32,823 bases of DNA from Gemmatimonadales bacterium. Its GTDB lineage: Bacteria; Gemmatimonadota; Gemmatimonadetes; Gemmatimonadales; GWC2-71-9. The stretch is taken from NCBI GenBank assembly GCA_025937755.1, contig JAICQR010000013.1, forward strand, positions 1-32,823, in the 5' to 3' direction. This document shows, piece by piece, positions 78 to 24,454 of this stretch (positions are counted from its first letter, which is position 1; each line of letters begins with the position of its first letter). Both the position numbers and the translations under genes were made by a program. The notes beneath the pieces were generated by a model. That model was not told the DNA's origin. It saw only the letters and a list, made by a program, of their open reading frames with translations, and searched no databases.

Positions 78-117
78 CTACCGCCTTACCGCCCTACCGC
101 CCTACCGCCTTACCGCC
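78..117. repeat. Five tandem copies of octamer YTACCGCC
   Basis: Five contiguous 8-base units (CTACCGCC or TTACCGCC) run without interruption. The array overlaps the 3' end of pabA on the minus strand: read in the pabA frame it encodes the last residues GGKAVGR and supplies the TAG stop. The same octamer family recurs at 5550-5573 upstream of the helicase gene, so it is probably a dispersed intergenic repeat family. Confidence 0.9.
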
Positions 118-678
118 TGTTCGCAGGAAGTTCCGCAGCAGCTCATGCCCATGCTCCGTCAGTACGGACTCGGGATGGAACTGTACTCCGTACACCGGAC
201 GCTCCCGGTGTTGGAGGGCCATGATCTCGCCCTCCTCTGAACGGGCGGTAACCCGCAGCGCCGCCGGCAGTGACTCCTCTTCCACCACCAGCGAGTGATA
301 GCGCCCAGCTCTGAGGGGCGACGGCAGCCCGGCGAGGATCCCGCTGCCATCGTGCTCGATCTGCGACGCGCGGCCGTGCATCGGCCGCGTTCCCCTGACG
401 ATCCGGCCGCCCAGCGCGGCGGCGATGCACTGATGGCCGAGGCAGACGCCGAGAATCGGCGTGCTGCGTGCCAGCGCGCGCACCAGTTCGGGGGCGATAC
501 CTGCCTCGGCGGGAGTGCATGGCCCGGGCGAAACGACCAGGTGGGTCGGCGCCATGGCCAGCACCTCATCGACGCTGATGGCATCATTGCGGCGCACCAG
601 CGGTTCACCCCCCAGTTCGGCGATATAGCGTGCCAGGTTGTGGACGAAGCTGTCGTAGTTGTCGAGGACCAGGATCAT
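94..678 (-). CDS. pabA: Aminodeoxychorismate synthase, glutamine amidotransferase subunit (PabA/TrpG type)
   Basis: Class I glutamine amidotransferase of 194 residues that releases ammonia from glutamine for the chorismate-aminating partner. The triad is visible: Cys79 in GVCLGHQ, and His168 and Glu170 in QFHPES. The N-terminus has the family signature LDNYDSFVHN and the oxyanion region SPGPCTP. The ATG overlaps the pabB stop as ATGA, so the two subunits are probably translationally coupled. Sequence alone does not separate PabA from TrpG; the PabB-type partner (PIKGT) and folate neighbours favour PabA, though such subunits are often shared with tryptophan synthesis. The last residues (GGKAVGR) are encoded by an octamer repeat array and are unlikely to belong to the ancestral fold, which ends near LLRNFLR. 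Confidence 0.93.
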   Translation of the reverse strand: MILVLDNYDSFVHNLARYIAELGGEPLVRRNDAISVDEVLAMAPTHLVVSPGPCTPAEAGIAPELVRALARSTPILGVCLGHQCIAAALGGRIVRGTRPMHGRASQIEHDGSGILAGLPSPLRAGRYHSLVVEEESLPAALRVTARSEEGEIMALQHRERPVYGVQFHPESVLTEHGHELLRNFLRTGGKAVGR

Positions 679-5410: not shown

Positions 5411-5549
5411 TCGTTTCCACCGACATCAGCTCGCGCCGAGTCTCCTTCCGGCGGCTCGGCGATCGCGGGTACGGGAGGGATCACGCTGTCAAACAGCCGC
5501 GATCGCACGCCGCCTCCAGGAGACATCGGCGCTCGCGGCTTCCTTCGCC

Positions 5550-5606
5550 TTACCGCCATACCGCCATACCGCCGAGCCGTCCAGCCGTCCAGCCGTCCAG
5601 CCGTCC
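5550..5606. repeat. Two adjacent octamer arrays upstream of the helicase gene
   Basis: Positions 5550-5573 hold three TACCGCC-type octamers (TTACCGCC, ATACCGCC, ATACCGCC), the family also found at 78-117. After one base, 5575-5606 holds four perfect copies of AGCCGTCC plus a partial fifth. The arrays end 17 bases before the helicase ATG and cover the place where a -35 element would be. The rest of this intergenic region (5411-5549) holds two GCGATCGC palindromes (5459-5466, 5499-5506) and nothing else I recognise. Confidence 0.9.
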
Positions 5607-5612
5607 AGCCGC

Positions 5613-5623: not shown

Positions 5624-8173
5624 ATGCATCCTGCCCGCGACCATCACCTTCCTGTCGATCCCGAGGCCTACCGCCGGGCACCGCATCGGCACGGCCGGGT
5701 CATCGTCATTGCCCCCACCCGCGCCGCCTGCGAAACCATCGAGCTGGCGCTGGGTCTCCACCTCGACACCCTGCTGGAGCGGGAGCACGGGACCGAGCTG
5801 CGCACGTGGGCCGAAGCCGGACTGGCGTTCGGGATCGTGGCGGGCACCGGCACGGGCAAGACGCTGGGCATCCGGCCCATCGCCGAGGCGATCCTGCGGG
5901 AATCGCTGCGGGTCGGCGTCGTCAATCGTGAGCGTGAGGCCACACCCGAAACACCGTCGTGGAACGTGGTGATTGTCACCACCGGTATTGCCCGGCGCTG
6001 GTTCCAGGACGAACTGATCAGCGGCCACGACACGGTCATCGTGGACGAGATCCACCAGACATCAGCCGAGCTGGAACTCTGCCTCGCCCTGGGCAAGCGC
6101 GCCGGCTGCCGGTTCATCTGGCTCAGTGCGACGGTCGATCCCGCTTTCTACTCTGCCTACCTCGAAAGTCGCGAGGTGCTGGTGACCTCGGCCTTCGACC
6201 CCAAGCTCAAGGCGCGGGTCGAGGTGGTACCGAAGAAGCCGCAGGAGTTCCTGGACGCCGAGTTCGTGCGCAGGGCCATCAAGCAGAAACGGGGCGTGGC
6301 GGTGTTCGTGCCGACGCGGGCCGAAGTGGAGCAGCTGGCCGAGGGACTGGGGGAGCAGTGGAAGCGGCTCACCACTGCGTTCTACCACGGAGGCGAACCG
6401 ATCCGGGTGATTCGTCCCTTCCTGGAAGGGGAGGTGGAGCACCCGTGGCTGCTGGCGATGACCGCCGCGGGCCAGAGCGCGCTCAACTTGCGCGGCCTCG
6501 ACACCGTGGTGATCTACGATGCACGCTACGGCAACGTGGTGGACCGCGGCCGCAACGTGCTTCACCGCCTGTACCTCGGTGCCAATGAAATCCTGCAAAT
6601 GGCGGGGCGGGTGCACGGCCGGGTGCGGAACGGGGAGGTCTGGATTCTGAGTGATCGCGACTTGCAGTTCGAGTCGCTCCAGCCAGGGCCGCCCGAGTTC
6701 CAGCTGGCCGGGGACGCCGAACGGGTAGCGGTGACCTGTGCCGCGATCGGGGTGGATGCGTCGAACCTCGACCTGCCGGTGCCGCTGGACCGGATCGCCT
6801 ATCGCCGCGCGGTGGAGCTCCTCACCAGCCGGGGACTGATCGAGAACGGCCGGCTCACCGGCTACGGGAAGTCAGTCGAGGCGATGCCGGTGGACCGCCC
6901 ATGGGGCGAGATGCTGGTCAGTGCCGAAGGCGAGCTGGTGCCGGTGGTGGCGGTGTGCGCCAACATCGACTCGCTGCACCGGATGACCCGCGATGAGCGC
7001 GACCTGCATGGCCTGGTGGCCAACGGAAGCGACCACCTCACGGCGTACAATGTGTTCGCCGAGGCGGTGAACCAGCACGGATACCTGGGCGAAGTGTACG
7101 GCCTGCCCCGGCACCTGTTCGAGGATGGACTGGCCGACTGGGCCGAGCGGCGGGGCGTGCTGGTCAAGGCGATCGAGGACATCGCGCTCGGGACTGCGTC
7201 GGTCTATCGCGCGCTGGAGCTCCCATTGCCGAAAACGTTTACGCACGCGTCGAAGGACCTGCGCCAGCAGTTTGCCGAGCTGGTCGCGCGGATCATGCCG
7301 TTCGACCTGGTGATGGATGAGCGCACCGCCAGCGGCCAGGAAGCGCGGGTGTCGCGCACCTCGGTGGCGGGGAGCTGGGGCGCGGTGGCAGGATCGCTGC
7401 GCTGGTTTGCCGATAGGTGGGGAACTCCGCGCGCCGCCATCGAGGGCACCACACTGTCGTACGAACTGGTTCAGCGACACGCGACGTGGGGACCGCCGAT
7501 GCTGGAGGTGGGGGGGCCGAGAAAGCACCAGCGGGTGCAGGTCGCGCGTACGCGTGAGTATTTCGGGTTCGAGCTGGACAGCGACCGGCAATCGATCGAG
7601 GGGCGCTTCCCGCCCGAGCACCAGGAGGCAGCGCTCAAGGCGCTCGCGTCGGCGCTGCTTGCGGGCGACACGGTGCACGCTGATCAGGGCCGGATCCGCC
7701 GCGCGGCAGAAACGCTGGATGACTACTGGCGCCGCAGCGGTGGGAGGCTGGCGGTCGCGTCGCGGGAATCGCTGCAGGAGTTGATCGCGTCACAGCTCGA
7801 AGCCGAAGGCGTGAACAGCTGGGAGACGTTCGTCCGGGCGGGGATCACGCTCGATATCGATGAGTTGATCGGCAGCGAGACCCGGGCCGAGCTGGATGCG
7901 CTGCCCAGCAGCGCCCGTATCAAGGGCGACGTCGTTCCGCTGGACTACGACGTGGTGAAGGGCAGGGCGGTGGTGCGGCTGACATTGCGCGACGGCCAGG
8001 TGCGGCGGGTGCGTGCGGGCGACCTGCCGGACGTGGACCGCCCGCTGGTGTTCGAGGTCCGGCGAGGCAATCACTCGCCGCTCAGGGCTGATACGCTGGA
8101 AGAGCTGCGGTCCCAACTGGAGCGCCAGCCGCCCCGACGCCATCAGCAACGTCGGCGGGGCGGCAGGCGCTGA
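5624..8173 (+). CDS. DEAH-type (HrpA/HrpB-like) superfamily 2 helicase
   Basis: 849-residue nucleic-acid-dependent ATPase. Motif I is GTGTGKT (74-80), motif II DEIH (141-144), motif III SAT (168-170), followed by a second RecA-like domain with VAVFVPTRAE (about 225-234) and MTAAGQSALNLRGLDTV (279-295). Motif VI reads QMAGRVHGR (325-333), where most DEAH proteins have QRxGRxGR, so the first arginine is replaced by Met. A segment VIVIAPTRAACETIE (about 26-40) resembles motif Ia but lies before motif I, which is unusual. The C-terminal 450 residues resemble HrpA/HrpB-type tails only in general character, and the end is very basic (RRHQQRRRGGRR). RNA is a likely substrate; the pathway is unknown. 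It stands alone, with repeats in front and a convergent gene behind. Confidence 0.8.
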   Translation: MHPARDHHLPVDPEAYRRAPHRHGRVIVIAPTRAACETIELALGLHLDTLLEREHGTELRTWAEAGLAFGIVAGTGTGKTLGIRPIAEAILRESLRVGVVNREREATPETPSWNVVIVTTGIARRWFQDELISGHDTVIVDEIHQTSAELELCLALGKRAGCRFIWLSATVDPAFYSAYLESREVLVTSAFDPKLKARVEVVPKKPQEFLDAEFVRRAIKQKRGVAVFVPTRAEVEQLAEGLGEQWKRLTTAFYHGGEPIRVIRPFLEGEVEHPWLLAMTAAGQSALNLRGLDTVVIYDARYGNVVDRGRNVLHRLYLGANEILQMAGRVHGRVRNGEVWILSDRDLQFESLQPGPPEFQLAGDAERVAVTCAAIGVDASNLDLPVPLDRIAYRRAVELLTSRGLIENGRLTGYGKSVEAMPVDRPWGEMLVSAEGELVPVVAVCANIDSLHRMTRDERDLHGLVANGSDHLTAYNVFAEAVNQHGYLGEVYGLPRHLFEDGLADWAERRGVLVKAIEDIALGTASVYRALELPLPKTFTHASKDLRQQFAELVARIMPFDLVMDERTASGQEARVSRTSVAGSWGAVAGSLRWFADRWGTPRAAIEGTTLSYELVQRHATWGPPMLEVGGPRKHQRVQVARTREYFGFELDSDRQSIEGRFPPEHQEAALKALASALLAGDTVHADQGRIRRAAETLDDYWRRSGGRLAVASRESLQELIASQLEAEGVNSWETFVRAGITLDIDELIGSETRAELDALPSSARIKGDVVPLDYDVVKGRAVVRLTLRDGQVRRVRAGDLPDVDRPLVFEVRRGNHSPLRADTLEELRSQLERQPPRRHQQRRRGGRR

Positions 8174-14531: not shown

Positions 14532-15734
14532 ATGGAATCGACCTATTTCCGCCGCGGATTTGGCCTCAAGAAGGAGATCGAGGAGGATCTGTCGCGGGAC
14601 TACGCCAGCGCGCTGGTGGAGCAGATGCGGGCGGGTGACTACACCTTCGAGCGCGGGCCGCTGACATTCCGGCTGGCCAAGGAGTTCGGGTTCTGCTACG
14701 GCGTCGATCGCGCGGTGGACTACGCCTACGAAAGCCGGCGCAAGTTTCCCGACCGCCGACTTTTTCTGGTGGGCGAGATCATCCACAACCCCCACGTCAA
14801 CGACAACCTGCGGGCCATGGGTATCAGCATCCTGGCTCACGATCCCGACAGGCCATTCGATTTCTCGGGTATCACCGCTGACGACGTGGTCATCATGCCG
14901 GCGTTCGGCGTCACGATCGACGACTTCAAGCGGCTGCGGGAGACCGGTGCGGTACTGGTGGACACCACCTGCGGATCGGTGCTCAACGTCTGGAAGCGGG
15001 TGGACAGCTACGCCAGAGACGGCTTCACATCGCTGATCCACGGCAAGCACTGGCACGAGGAGACCAAGGCCACCGCCAGTCAGACCGCGAAGCATCCCGA
15101 CGGCAAGTACCTCGTGGTGCTGGACATGGCCGAGGCCACTCCGGTACTCGACTTCATTCGCAGGGGAGGGAGCGAGGCCGAGGCGGCGGCGCTGAGCGAG
15201 AAGTTCGCCAAGGCGGTATCACCCGGCTTCGACTTCGATCGCGACCTGGTGCGGATCGGGGTCGCCAACCAGACCACGATGCTGTCGGGCGAGTCACTCG
15301 CGATCGCGGCGGCGTTTGGTGAGGCGCTGGCGGAGCGCTACGGCCCGGACCACGCGGCTGAACATTTCCGCAGCTTCGACACCATCTGTTCCGCCACCCA
15401 GGAGCGGCAGGACGCTGTTGAGGCGCTGCTGGCGGAATCGCCCGACGTGATGATCGTCGTGGGCGGTTACAACTCGAGCAATACCTGCCACCTGGCGGAA
15501 CTGTCGGAGATCAAGGGAGCGCGGACGTATCACATCGCCGACGCTGACTGCATCGATGCCGCCGCCGGCACCATCCGGTACCAGCCAGTGGGGGCGAAGC
15601 TGGAGGCGACCGAGACCGGGTGGCTGCGCGACGCGCGCCGGATCGGGCTCACGGCAGGGGCGTCCACGCCGAACAACAAGATCGGGGAGACCATACTGCG
15701 CATCTGTGAGACGGCAGGGGTCGACGCCATTTAG
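14532..15734 (+). CDS. ispH: 4-hydroxy-3-methylbut-2-enyl diphosphate reductase
   Basis: Last enzyme of the MEP isoprenoid pathway, a [4Fe-4S] reductase giving IPP and DMAPP in the cytosol. The 400-residue length is that of the long cyanobacterial/plant-type IspH rather than the roughly 315-residue E. coli form. Cluster ligands are Cys55 (FGFCYGV), Cys147 (DTTCGSV) and Cys286 (DTICSATQERQ). Substrate-binding motifs EIIHNPHVN, KHWHEET and GGYNSSNT are also present. Start: ATG 14532, nine bases after the upstream stop. The stop codon TAG abuts a heptamer repeat, whose first unit starts on the G of the stop. Confidence 0.95.
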   Translation: MESTYFRRGFGLKKEIEEDLSRDYASALVEQMRAGDYTFERGPLTFRLAKEFGFCYGVDRAVDYAYESRRKFPDRRLFLVGEIIHNPHVNDNLRAMGISILAHDPDRPFDFSGITADDVVIMPAFGVTIDDFKRLRETGAVLVDTTCGSVLNVWKRVDSYARDGFTSLIHGKHWHEETKATASQTAKHPDGKYLVVLDMAEATPVLDFIRRGGSEAEAAALSEKFAKAVSPGFDFDRDLVRIGVANQTTMLSGESLAIAAAFGEALAERYGPDHAAEHFRSFDTICSATQERQDAVEALLAESPDVMIVVGGYNSSNTCHLAELSEIKGARTYHIADADCIDAAAGTIRYQPVGAKLEATETGWLRDARRIGLTAGASTPNNKIGETILRICETAGVDAI

Positions 15735-15821
15735 TGGGGAGTGGGAAGTGGGGAGTGGGAAGTGGATGGGCGTCTAACTTCACTTCTTCCCACTTCCCGC
15801 TTCCCACTTCCCACTTCCTGC
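15734..15821. repeat. Inverted pair of heptamer tandem arrays at a convergent gene junction
   Basis: Left array: GTGGGRA repeated four times plus a half unit (15734-15765), starting on the last base of the ispH stop. Right array: the complementary heptamer TTCCCRC, four copies (15787-15814) and a degenerate fifth. The arms are near-perfect complements about 20 bases apart, so the RNA from either strand could fold into one long hairpin, possibly a two-way transcription terminator. The right array is also coding: it forms the C-terminal tail of the DUF72 gene. The same heptamer family recurs at 24416-24443. Confidence 0.9.
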
Positions 15822-16739
15822 TTTCCAGAGCCTCGCCAACGCCGCGATCGTCAGCGGCGAACACCCTTCCGTCCGGTTGTTGATCACCACGAATGCAGGC
15901 GTATTGAGTTCGAGCGCTGTGTGCATCAGCCGGACAAGATCCATCCGAAGCACGGGGTCTGGTGCCCGGATCCGGTCGAACGGCGCGAACGCGTCCACCG
16001 ACTCACCGTAGAGCATGCCCGGGCGAAGCAGGGCACGGCACACGATGAACCCTGCCGTGGTCGCCGTGCCCAGGTCCAGCTGCTGCCCGACCGTGGGCAT
16101 GTTGCTCCAGGCATTGAGCGTATGGGCCACCCCGTGGGTCCGCAGCACCTCGAGGTACATCGGCGTCAGGAACTCGGGGCTCCGCAGCTCGACGGCGTAC
16201 TGAAGTTCACGCGGCAACTGCTCCAGAAACCGATCCAGCGCTTCCGCAAACCATTCCGGCGTCAGCCCCTTCTTTCGGCCAAACGCGGGGAACTCGAGCA
16301 CCAGCGGCCCCGCGTGCCCGGCAAACGATTCGAGGTACGGGCCTGCCACTGCATCCAGGAAGAGCTGGGCGTTGAGGAAGTTCTCGTTGAGCTGACCCGC
16401 GCGCTTCCGGTCCTGGCGAGTCCAGGTATGAACGGTGATCTCCTGCCACACCTTGCTTACACAGGGAAAGTCTTCCGGCAGCTGCTCGGCGTAGCGGGCG
16501 AGGGTATCGCGCGAGGGCGGGGCGTAGAAGGCGGAGTCGATTCCGACGGTACGAAACAGCGGGTAGCGCGCTGCTTCTCCCAGCAGCAGGGTGGCGGCGT
16601 TTTTCCTGGGATACTCTCCGTGATATACGAGGCCGGTCCAGCCGGGATAGGTCCACGACGATGGGCCGAAACGCACCAGCTCCGGTAGCAGCGCCGCCAG
16701 TTCGGCGGGGGTCTCGTTCCCCTCGACGTCGTCAATCAT
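15780..16739 (-). CDS. DUF72 (YecE-like) protein
   Basis: 319-residue protein of the TIM-barrel-like DUF72 family, whose activity is not established. Family signatures are RFGPSSWTYPGWTGLVYHGEYPRKN at the start, AFYAPPS and a central VSKVWQEITVH, then VELRSPEF and AFVVINNRTEG near the end. ATG 16739 lies 10 bases after the stop of the metallo-beta-lactamase-like gene, so it is third in the BTAD regulator operon; the frame is open up to 16787 but that would overlap the upstream gene. The final residues (WKAGSGKWEAGSGKK) are encoded by the heptamer repeat array and probably extend the ancestral C-terminus. Confidence 0.88.
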   Translation of the reverse strand: MIDDVEGNETPAELAALLPELVRFGPSSWTYPGWTGLVYHGEYPRKNAATLLLGEAARYPLFRTVGIDSAFYAPPSRDTLARYAEQLPEDFPCVSKVWQEITVHTWTRQDRKRAGQLNENFLNAQLFLDAVAGPYLESFAGHAGPLVLEFPAFGRKKGLTPEWFAEALDRFLEQLPRELQYAVELRSPEFLTPMYLEVLRTHGVAHTLNAWSNMPTVGQQLDLGTATTAGFIVCRALLRPGMLYGESVDAFAPFDRIRAPDPVLRMDLVRLMHTALELNTPAFVVINNRTEGCSPLTIAALARLWKAGSGKWEAGSGKK

Positions 16740-23461: not shown

Positions 23462-24415
23462 GTGAAACAGGTATTCCTCGACGGCCATTTCCTGGCGTTG
23501 CGGGACGTTGCCGATCCCCAACCCGGCGTTGGCCACGTGCTCGTGCGGGTGGCCGCGGCGGGGCTCAACCGGGCTGACCTGCTGCAACGGCGCGGGGGCT
23601 ATCCGGCGCCGGCTGGGTGGCCCGACGATGTGCCGGGGCTCGAGTTCGCGGGAACGGTGGAAGCGACCGGCGCCGAGGCGAGCCGCTGGAGGCCGGGCGA
23701 CAGGGTGATGGGGCTGGTGGGAGGCGGTGCCCAGTCCGAATTGTTGGCCGTGCATGAAGCCGAGCTGCTGCCAGTGCCACCGAGGATGGAGCTCAGTGAA
23801 GCGGCCGCCGTGCCGGAGTCATTTATCACCGCCTACGACGCGCTTCGCAATCGGGGAAGACTCCAGGCTGGCGAACGGGTGCTGCTGCATGCCGTGGGCA
23901 GCGGCGTCGGTACTGCTGCACTGCAGATCGCCCGGCTGTGGGACGCCATTGTGGTGGGCACCTCGCGCAGCGCCGGCAAGCTGGCCCAGGCCACAGCGAT
24001 GGGACTGCACGTGGCGGTCAACACCAGCGAGCGCTCCTTCGCGGAAGCGCTGCGCGAGCCGGTGGATGTGATCATAGATCCGCTGGGTGCACCGTCGCTT
24101 ACCGACAACCTTGCGGTGCTGGCGCACGGCGGCCGGCTGGTGCTGATCGGATTCCTGCAGGGGAGCAGAGCCGAAGTGGACCTGCAGCCGCTGCTCCGAA
24201 AGCAGCTTCACGTGGTCGGCACGCTGATGCGACCGCGGCAGCATGCCGAGCGGGTGGAGGTAGTGCGCCGGTTCGCCGACGACATCCTCCCCGCGCTGGA
24301 GTCGGGGCTGGTTCGGCCGGTTGTCGCTCGGCGCTTCGCCATGGACGCGATTGCCGAGGCACACGAGCTGCTGGAGCAGAATGCGGTGTTCGGGAAGATC
24401 GTCGTGGAGTGGTGA
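23462..24415 (+). CDS. Zinc-independent MDR quinone oxidoreductase (QOR/PIG3-like)
   Basis: 317-residue NAD(P)H-dependent oxidoreductase of the medium-chain family. The N-terminal domain has GLNRADLLQRRGGYPAPAG, typical of QOR and PIG3 proteins, and lacks the structural-zinc cysteines of alcohol dehydrogenases. The nucleotide-binding fold carries LLHAVGSGVGTAALQIARL (about 141-159), with GSGVGT in place of the common GASGGVG, and a basic Ser-Arg-Ser stretch (GTSRSAGK) that favours NADPH. Start is GTG 23462 without a strong ribosome binding site. The stop TGA touches a heptamer repeat. Likely role: reduction of quinones or reactive carbonyls. Confidence 0.9.
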   Translation: MKQVFLDGHFLALRDVADPQPGVGHVLVRVAAAGLNRADLLQRRGGYPAPAGWPDDVPGLEFAGTVEATGAEASRWRPGDRVMGLVGGGAQSELLAVHEAELLPVPPRMELSEAAAVPESFITAYDALRNRGRLQAGERVLLHAVGSGVGTAALQIARLWDAIVVGTSRSAGKLAQATAMGLHVAVNTSERSFAEALREPVDVIIDPLGAPSLTDNLAVLAHGGRLVLIGFLQGSRAEVDLQPLLRKQLHVVGTLMRPRQHAERVEVVRRFADDILPALESGLVRPVVARRFAMDAIAEAHELLEQNAVFGKIVVEW

Positions 24416-24443
24416 GTGGGAAGTGAGAAGTGAGAAGTGAGAA
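24416..24443. repeat. Four tandem heptamers GTGRGAA at a convergent junction
   Basis: GTGGGAA then three GTGAGAA units begin directly after the TGA stop of the quinone oxidoreductase. They end about 11 bases before the stop of the convergent radical SAM gene. This is the same heptamer family as at 15734-15821, in the same position relative to a stop codon. Confidence 0.9.
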
Positions 24444-24454
24444 GTATTGCGGGC

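Follow-up and report, generated by a model that had tools for sequence, protein, structure and literature searches.

In the genome of a Gemmatimonadales bacterium (assembly GCA_025937755.1, contig JAICQR010000013.1) the convergent genes ispH and DUF72 meet at two purine-rich heptamer arrays which face each other, one of them being part of a coding sequence. This arrangement raises the question of what kind of element these arrays represent and why they lie exactly at a gene border. The window, i.e., the whole stretch of 32,823 nucleotides that was analyzed, includes the following features:

14532..15734, plus strand: ispH (LytB) coding sequence with stop codon TAG at 15732-15734 (Pfam LYTB, E-value 1.5e-68; start taken from the codon-usage gene caller)
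15733..15765, plus strand: purine-rich heptamer array, 4.7 units of AGTGGGR, its AG being common with the ispH stop codon
15766..15785, no strand: spacer of 20 bases, hairpin loop region separating the two arms
15786..15827, minus strand: facing purine-rich heptamer array, perfect at 15786-15818 and followed by two degenerate units to 15827, encoding the last residues of DUF72
15780..16739, minus strand: DUF72 protein gene with array-derived end WKAGSGKWEAGSGKK and stop codon TGA at 15780-15782 (Pfam DUF72, E-value 6.3e-29; start uncertain, either 16739 or 16787)
24406..24445, plus strand: second AGTGRGA array, its perfect part beginning at 24415, where a zinc-binding dehydrogenase gene has the A of its stop codon TGA (24413-24415)
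79..118, minus strand: octamer array AGGCGGTA, of the same class but with a different unit, located where a minus-strand ORF (94-678) ends
5546..5611, minus strand: two adjoining octamer arrays (5546-5573 and 5575-5611), GGCGGTAT and GGCTGGAC, upstream of a gene starting at 5624

The domain identities of both proteins, LYTB/IspH and DUF72, were confirmed by Pfam. The plus-strand array reads AGTGGGG AGTGGGA AGTGGGG AGTGGGA AGTGG and follows ispH without any gap, its GTGGGGA register beginning on the last base of the stop codon, as the first-pass annotation had stated. Two further claims of this annotation, namely that the complementary array codes for the DUF72 C-terminus and that both arms can pair as one long hairpin, proved correct as well: the minus strand translates into WKAGSGKWEAGSGKK followed by the stop, and the arms exhibit 90% complementarity over 30 bp. 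For the border transcript, RNA folding predicts a single stem of about 33 pairs with -67.8 kcal/mol vs. -35.8 kcal/mol for shuffled sequences (z -9.4).

The end of the DUF72 protein is a translated repeat, an accidental extension. In a comparison of C-termini, the approach that had been suggested for this tail, 13 orthologue loci were matched, all of them without a repeat-coded tail and without GSGKWEAGSGKK. Most of these orthologues end 0-10 residues past the conserved block, with unrelated tails; two of the 13 matches contain an in-frame stop near the end, with reading continuing further.

Within the window, a pattern of three units, with up to 3 mismatches allowed, yielded 9 matches vs. 0.02 expected. 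In the entire source assembly (2.32 Mb, 80% complete, 67% GC) the exact 20-mer pattern AGTGRGRAGTGRGRAGTGRG matched 377 times, with no match of its reversed control. The same pattern was found in only 14 of 102 genomes of the same family, mostly with few matches, while the other 88 did not contain any. One genome of the family (G076) exhibited 14 and 35 matches of the reversed control pattern, with another, GTGARGR-like heptamer class being amplified there. For positional analyses, 121 stretches (1.13 Mb) of the bacterium's own genome were sampled and genes were predicted by a codon-usage caller written for this purpose, with exact gene stops and approximate gene starts. This sample included 111 arrays of the AGTGGGA type, of which 105 had usable flanks away from contig ends; since the first 20 stretches were picked for holding arrays, array densities are biased upward, which does not affect positions. 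AGTGAGA accounted for 119 of the roughly 480 units that were counted; it is the main unit in G087, a genome of the same family but of another genus. Besides the AGTGGGA type, the own genome holds eight further array families of 7-9-mers (e.g., 38 AGTRTGGG and 27 GGCGGTAR arrays), several of them with the same habits at gene borders. The arrays at the ispH/DUF72 border are, in conclusion, members of a large, lineage-specific and multi-family set of elements in this genome.

The arrays are mostly intergenic (12 of 105 lie within predicted genes) and their distances to stop codons are far from random. In 22 of 105 cases the first array base was located at offset -2 from the end of a same-strand stop (T|AG, T|GA, T|AA), whereas any other single offset was shared by at most five arrays (p 6e-17 vs. 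uniform placement). The register of the arrays relative to the A or AG of the stop also departs from chance (p 4e-6). Together with the missing tail in the 13 DUF72 orthologue matches, this supports the earlier interpretation that the repeat accumulates at stop codons. A same-strand stop was present within 25 bp of 62 of the 105 arrays and an opposite-strand start at -10 to 40 bp of 23; the gap to the gene was smaller at the 5′ end of the array than at its 3′ end in 51 of 65 cases. Offsets such as -6 to -21 arise because AGTGAGA arrays contain TGA and can themselves end genes. The ends of the arrays are also fixed: 81 of 105 start in the phase AGTG or RAGTG, and 3′ ends lie preferentially after AAG or AAGTGG (chi-square vs. 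simulated random-phase insertions, p 9e-35 for the start and 2e-6 for the 3′ end). As the start phase was also seen in 43 arrays which are not near a stop, it is inherent to the element and not just a consequence of the stop codon.

Comparison with orthologues shows that most of the tested stops at array joints are native. Orthologue matches ended on the same residue for HslU (9/9), XerC (13/13), QueE (5/5) and Icd (7/9, the remaining two being one residue longer), a few of the Icd and HslU rows being the same genome region fetched twice. Array-created stops as a general rule were rejected for these four proteins. FabI (L207:12634-13521) also ends at an array joint; its orthologues are 5-14 residues longer and therefore the array there may have made the stop. 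FabI thus seems to be shortened, a possible array-made truncation, and not to end at a native stop.

Neighboring arrays, defined as arrays within 80 bp of each other, were analyzed for nine unit families of 7-9 bp in the own genome. The inverted arrangement described at ispH/DUF72 turned out to be the general rule, with 45 pairs in the order '+-', 13 in '++' or '--' and none in '-+'. Both arms belonged to one family in 42 of the 45 inverted pairs (10.7 expected), and the arms of AGTGRGR pairs were alike, weakly, in their unit variants (p 0.02-0.05). For the AGTGGGA/AGTGAGA unit, 15 '+-' pairs and no other order were observed within 200 bp; in G087, 15 inverted pairs were found in the 18 loci sampled. 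Because the purine-rich 5′ ends are the outer ends of an inverted repeat, they adjoin a gene whatever the direction of this gene, which is the polarity known for such repeats. About three quarters of the arrays in the own genome are single and lack a detectable partner. Hidden partner arms for these single arrays were considered and rejected, the excess in the down-flanks being slight (4 of 74 vs. about 3% at random).

Paired hairpins were found at 18 of 114 convergent, 19 of 721 tandem and 3 of 121 divergent junctions, which is an approximately sevenfold enrichment at convergent borders (18/114 vs. 22/842 at other junctions, p 8e-8). This enrichment fits with a serious rival explanation, namely that the arrays are selected two-way transcription terminators or stabilizers of mRNA 3′ ends, the hairpin ending the transcripts of both convergent genes. 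Like intrinsic terminators, the elements form hairpins after the stop and are strongest at convergent borders; every pair that was folded gave a strong predicted stem (z -5.0 to -10.6), and the window contains few classical hairpin-plus-T sites, fewer than its shuffled versions. Unlike intrinsic terminators, the elements have a stem which consists of tandem units and measures about 30 bp, and no T-tract after the pyrimidine arm: a scan for intrinsic terminators yielded no terminator-like site at 15733-15827, and there is no T-run in this sequence. Selection for termination also does not account for the many single arrays which form no hairpin, for arrays adjoining antisense starts, for some array being present in 23 of 121 divergent gaps and for orthologous borders in related genomes being without arrays. 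As the main cause, two-way termination appears not very likely; as a side effect it is possible.

The gene order of ispH and DUF72 is conserved in related genomes. The border is without an array in G055, where the stop codons of the two genes overlap by 9 bp. G074 has 44 bp between the genes, including a few degenerate purine heptamers after ispH, and in G068 a gap of 122 bp contains another purine repeat and a hairpin. In the latter genome (locus L055) the purine-rich repeat GGGACGGCAAGAA lies directly after the DUF72 stop, beside the hairpin CCCCCTCTCCGC...GCGGAGAGGGGG. An empty site was also seen in the comparison of G087 with its congener G086. At locus L285, the only empty site read at base level, G087 has TGAGC, the hairpin and GTCAGCACC, where G086 has TAGC, GCAGAGCAGCC and GTCAGCACC, so that 11 bp in G086 stand against a hairpin region of about 86 bp in G087. 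Two more syntenic sites, compared by coordinates only, are 90 and 51 bp shorter in G086, the pairs in G087 measuring 95 and 103 bp. G086 carries its own hairpins elsewhere. These are signs that whole hairpins are gained and lost as units.

The unit is not restricted to the family. An exact 27-mer was found, among the matches listed, in records of many phyla, isolates included, and of the cyanobacteria Microcystis, Nostoc, Spirulina, Moorena and Prochloron; Thioalkalivibrio sulfidiphilus ALJ17 and Christiangramia oceanisediminis are among the matches as well. Among the matches listed from other phyla, for which gene calls were rougher, 13 of 130 arrays started at offset -2 or -1 from a stop; neighboring arrays had the order '+-' in 16 cases and '-+' in one. 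Several loci in other phyla (L091, L102, L122 and L142) exhibit compound arrays in which the unit changes, e.g., from AGTCGTT to AGTGGGA, and the register of 7 bases is retained. At least five viral contigs (IMG/VR, L217-L221) contain the exact AGTGGGA 27-mer. It could be imagined, though we regard this as rather unlikely, that these arrays form a so far unrecognized class of bacterial mobile elements, i.e., hairpins with stems of tandem 7-9-mers which would integrate at stops by 1-2 nt of homology, change their units between families and genomes, and spread through many phyla by some enzyme or repair route. No mobilizing enzyme, target duplication or direct transposition event was found for the arrays. 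In a comparison with MITEs, which have terminal inverted repeats and duplicate their target site, the outer ends are fixed (AGTG...CACT), and no duplication was visible by eye in the flanks of the pairs or at the L285/L378 empty site.

A further alternative is ordinary slippage, by which arrays would grow in place from local seeds, heptamers being favored by polymerase slippage and purifying selection leaving the copies at borders. Array lengths vary widely, as such growth would predict, and a heptamer excess together with the idea of slippage is attributed to Mrazek where Rehm et al. (2015; PMC4692102) cite this work. However, the recurrence of one unit at more than 100 sites with fixed start and end phases is unexpected from independent local growth, and so are the single favored stop offset, the same-family arms and the presence/absence in the congener. 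Slippage as an explanation is, hence, improbable.

The parallel which the first-pass annotation had drawn to the STRR heptamers of cyanobacteria, i.e., dispersed short tandem heptamers in intergenic DNA, is a fair one, as the arrays described here are likewise dispersed intergenic tandem heptamers; the STRR units are different. A much closer precedent, which that annotation did not name, are the G-rich heptamers GGGAATC in Xanthomonas and GGGGA(C/T)T in Nostoc (Rehm et al., 2015; PMC4692102), which are dispersed, consist of few units and are mostly intergenic. Their purine strand lies near sense-strand stops or antisense-strand starts, with the 5′ end nearer to the gene than the 3′ end; divergent gaps are under-represented, and inverted plus/minus pairs occur in xanthomonads (70 and 75 cases; PMC4692102). 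The arrays of this study share the dispersed and mostly intergenic occurrence, the stop-sense/start-antisense placement and the inverted pairs. They differ in their units, a single genome holding AGTGGGA, AGTGAGA and several 7-9-mers, as well as in the exact register with the stop, the fixed phases of both ends and the congener empty site measured here. As the units differ from GGGNATC, the arrays belong to a similar class but not to the same sequence family; they are the class described by Rehm et al. (2015); their units are new and their anatomy is stricter. In the heptamer-repeat literature searched, neither the exact register with the stop nor fixed phases of the ends were found, nor was a rule by which both arms are of one family, over several units, or a congener empty site.

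The GGG runs of the AGTGGGA unit also bring up regulatory elements that fold as DNA or RNA G-quadruplexes and tune expression. Four AGTGGGA units provide four GGG tracts with 4-nt loops, and related heptamers formed G-quadruplexes in vitro (Rehm et al., 2015; PMC4692102). Unlike GGGNATC with its four G-tracts, AGTGAGA is devoid of G-tracts and yet shows the same placement, end phases and pairing, by which the quadruplex was rejected as common cause and is very improbable as an explanation.

Other known repeats are more distant. The TAACTGA direct repeats of Beggiatoaceae, Cyanobacteria and Bacteroidetes, for which horizontal spread is suspected (MacGregor, 2015; PMC4679880), are also scattered over distant phyla and in part overlap stop codons, but they lie mostly just upstream of starts, are rarely inverted and carry stops in their unit. 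REP elements, of which some are located 15 nt or less from a stop codon (RepRanger paper, PMC12306157), are, as REP/BIME, intergenic hairpins like the elements described here, but their stems are not tandem repeats, REP/BIME being imperfect short palindromes that go with a RAYT (Y1_Tnp) gene. An Rfam search yielded no match above the gathering score and only sub-threshold microRNA-like hairpin matches.

With moderate confidence, we favor the view that the arrays are a proliferating, nearly neutral hairpin repeat which is tolerated at gene ends and gained and lost as a unit at gene borders. This view builds on array positions, end phases, pairing, same-family arms, presence/absence in the congener and native stops, all of which are directly supported. 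Both arrays at ispH/DUF72 would be arms of one intergenic hairpin element with stems of short tandem repeats. The 5′ end of the purine-rich strand would be the outer end of each arm, by which each arm would abut its neighboring gene. Where a gene ends at an arm, the array shares the A or AG of the stop, a microhomology joint of 1-2 nt; such a joint would be tolerated in a stop codon, which is either preserved or supplied anew. Copies inside genes and in divergent promoter gaps would be purged, and most of the remaining ones would be nearly neutral or selfish passengers. Copying would take place between loci, with the second arm possibly resulting from foldback or template switching. Downstream of the stop, the hairpin in the RNA may have incidental effects on 3′ ends, through termination, protection from exonucleases or ribosome release. 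It is hardly credible that a dedicated enzyme is behind this, either a telomerase-like reverse transcriptase by which 3′ ends would be extended at stops or a RAYT-type transposase as for REP: the fixed phases and the junction sharing of 1-2 nt would fit with primed, templated addition, RVT_1 proteins occur in G034, G036 and G087 and two Y1_Tnp matches, one solid and one weak, were seen in the own genome, but the reverse transcriptase was rejected as RVT_1 is absent from the array-richest (own) genome, which is 80% complete, and RAYT as Y1_Tnp occurs in 59 of 102 genomes regardless of arrays, most of them having none.

To our knowledge, heptamer arrays have been described in bacteria for decades, and there is no agreement on their origin or function. 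The stop register, the fixed ends, the same-family arms, the empty sites and the independence from G-quadruplexes argue against slippage or quadruplex formation as the sole cause. The tail of DUF72 is an example of such repeats becoming protein, and the rules described here give concrete loci at which gain, loss and RNA effect of the arrays can be tested.
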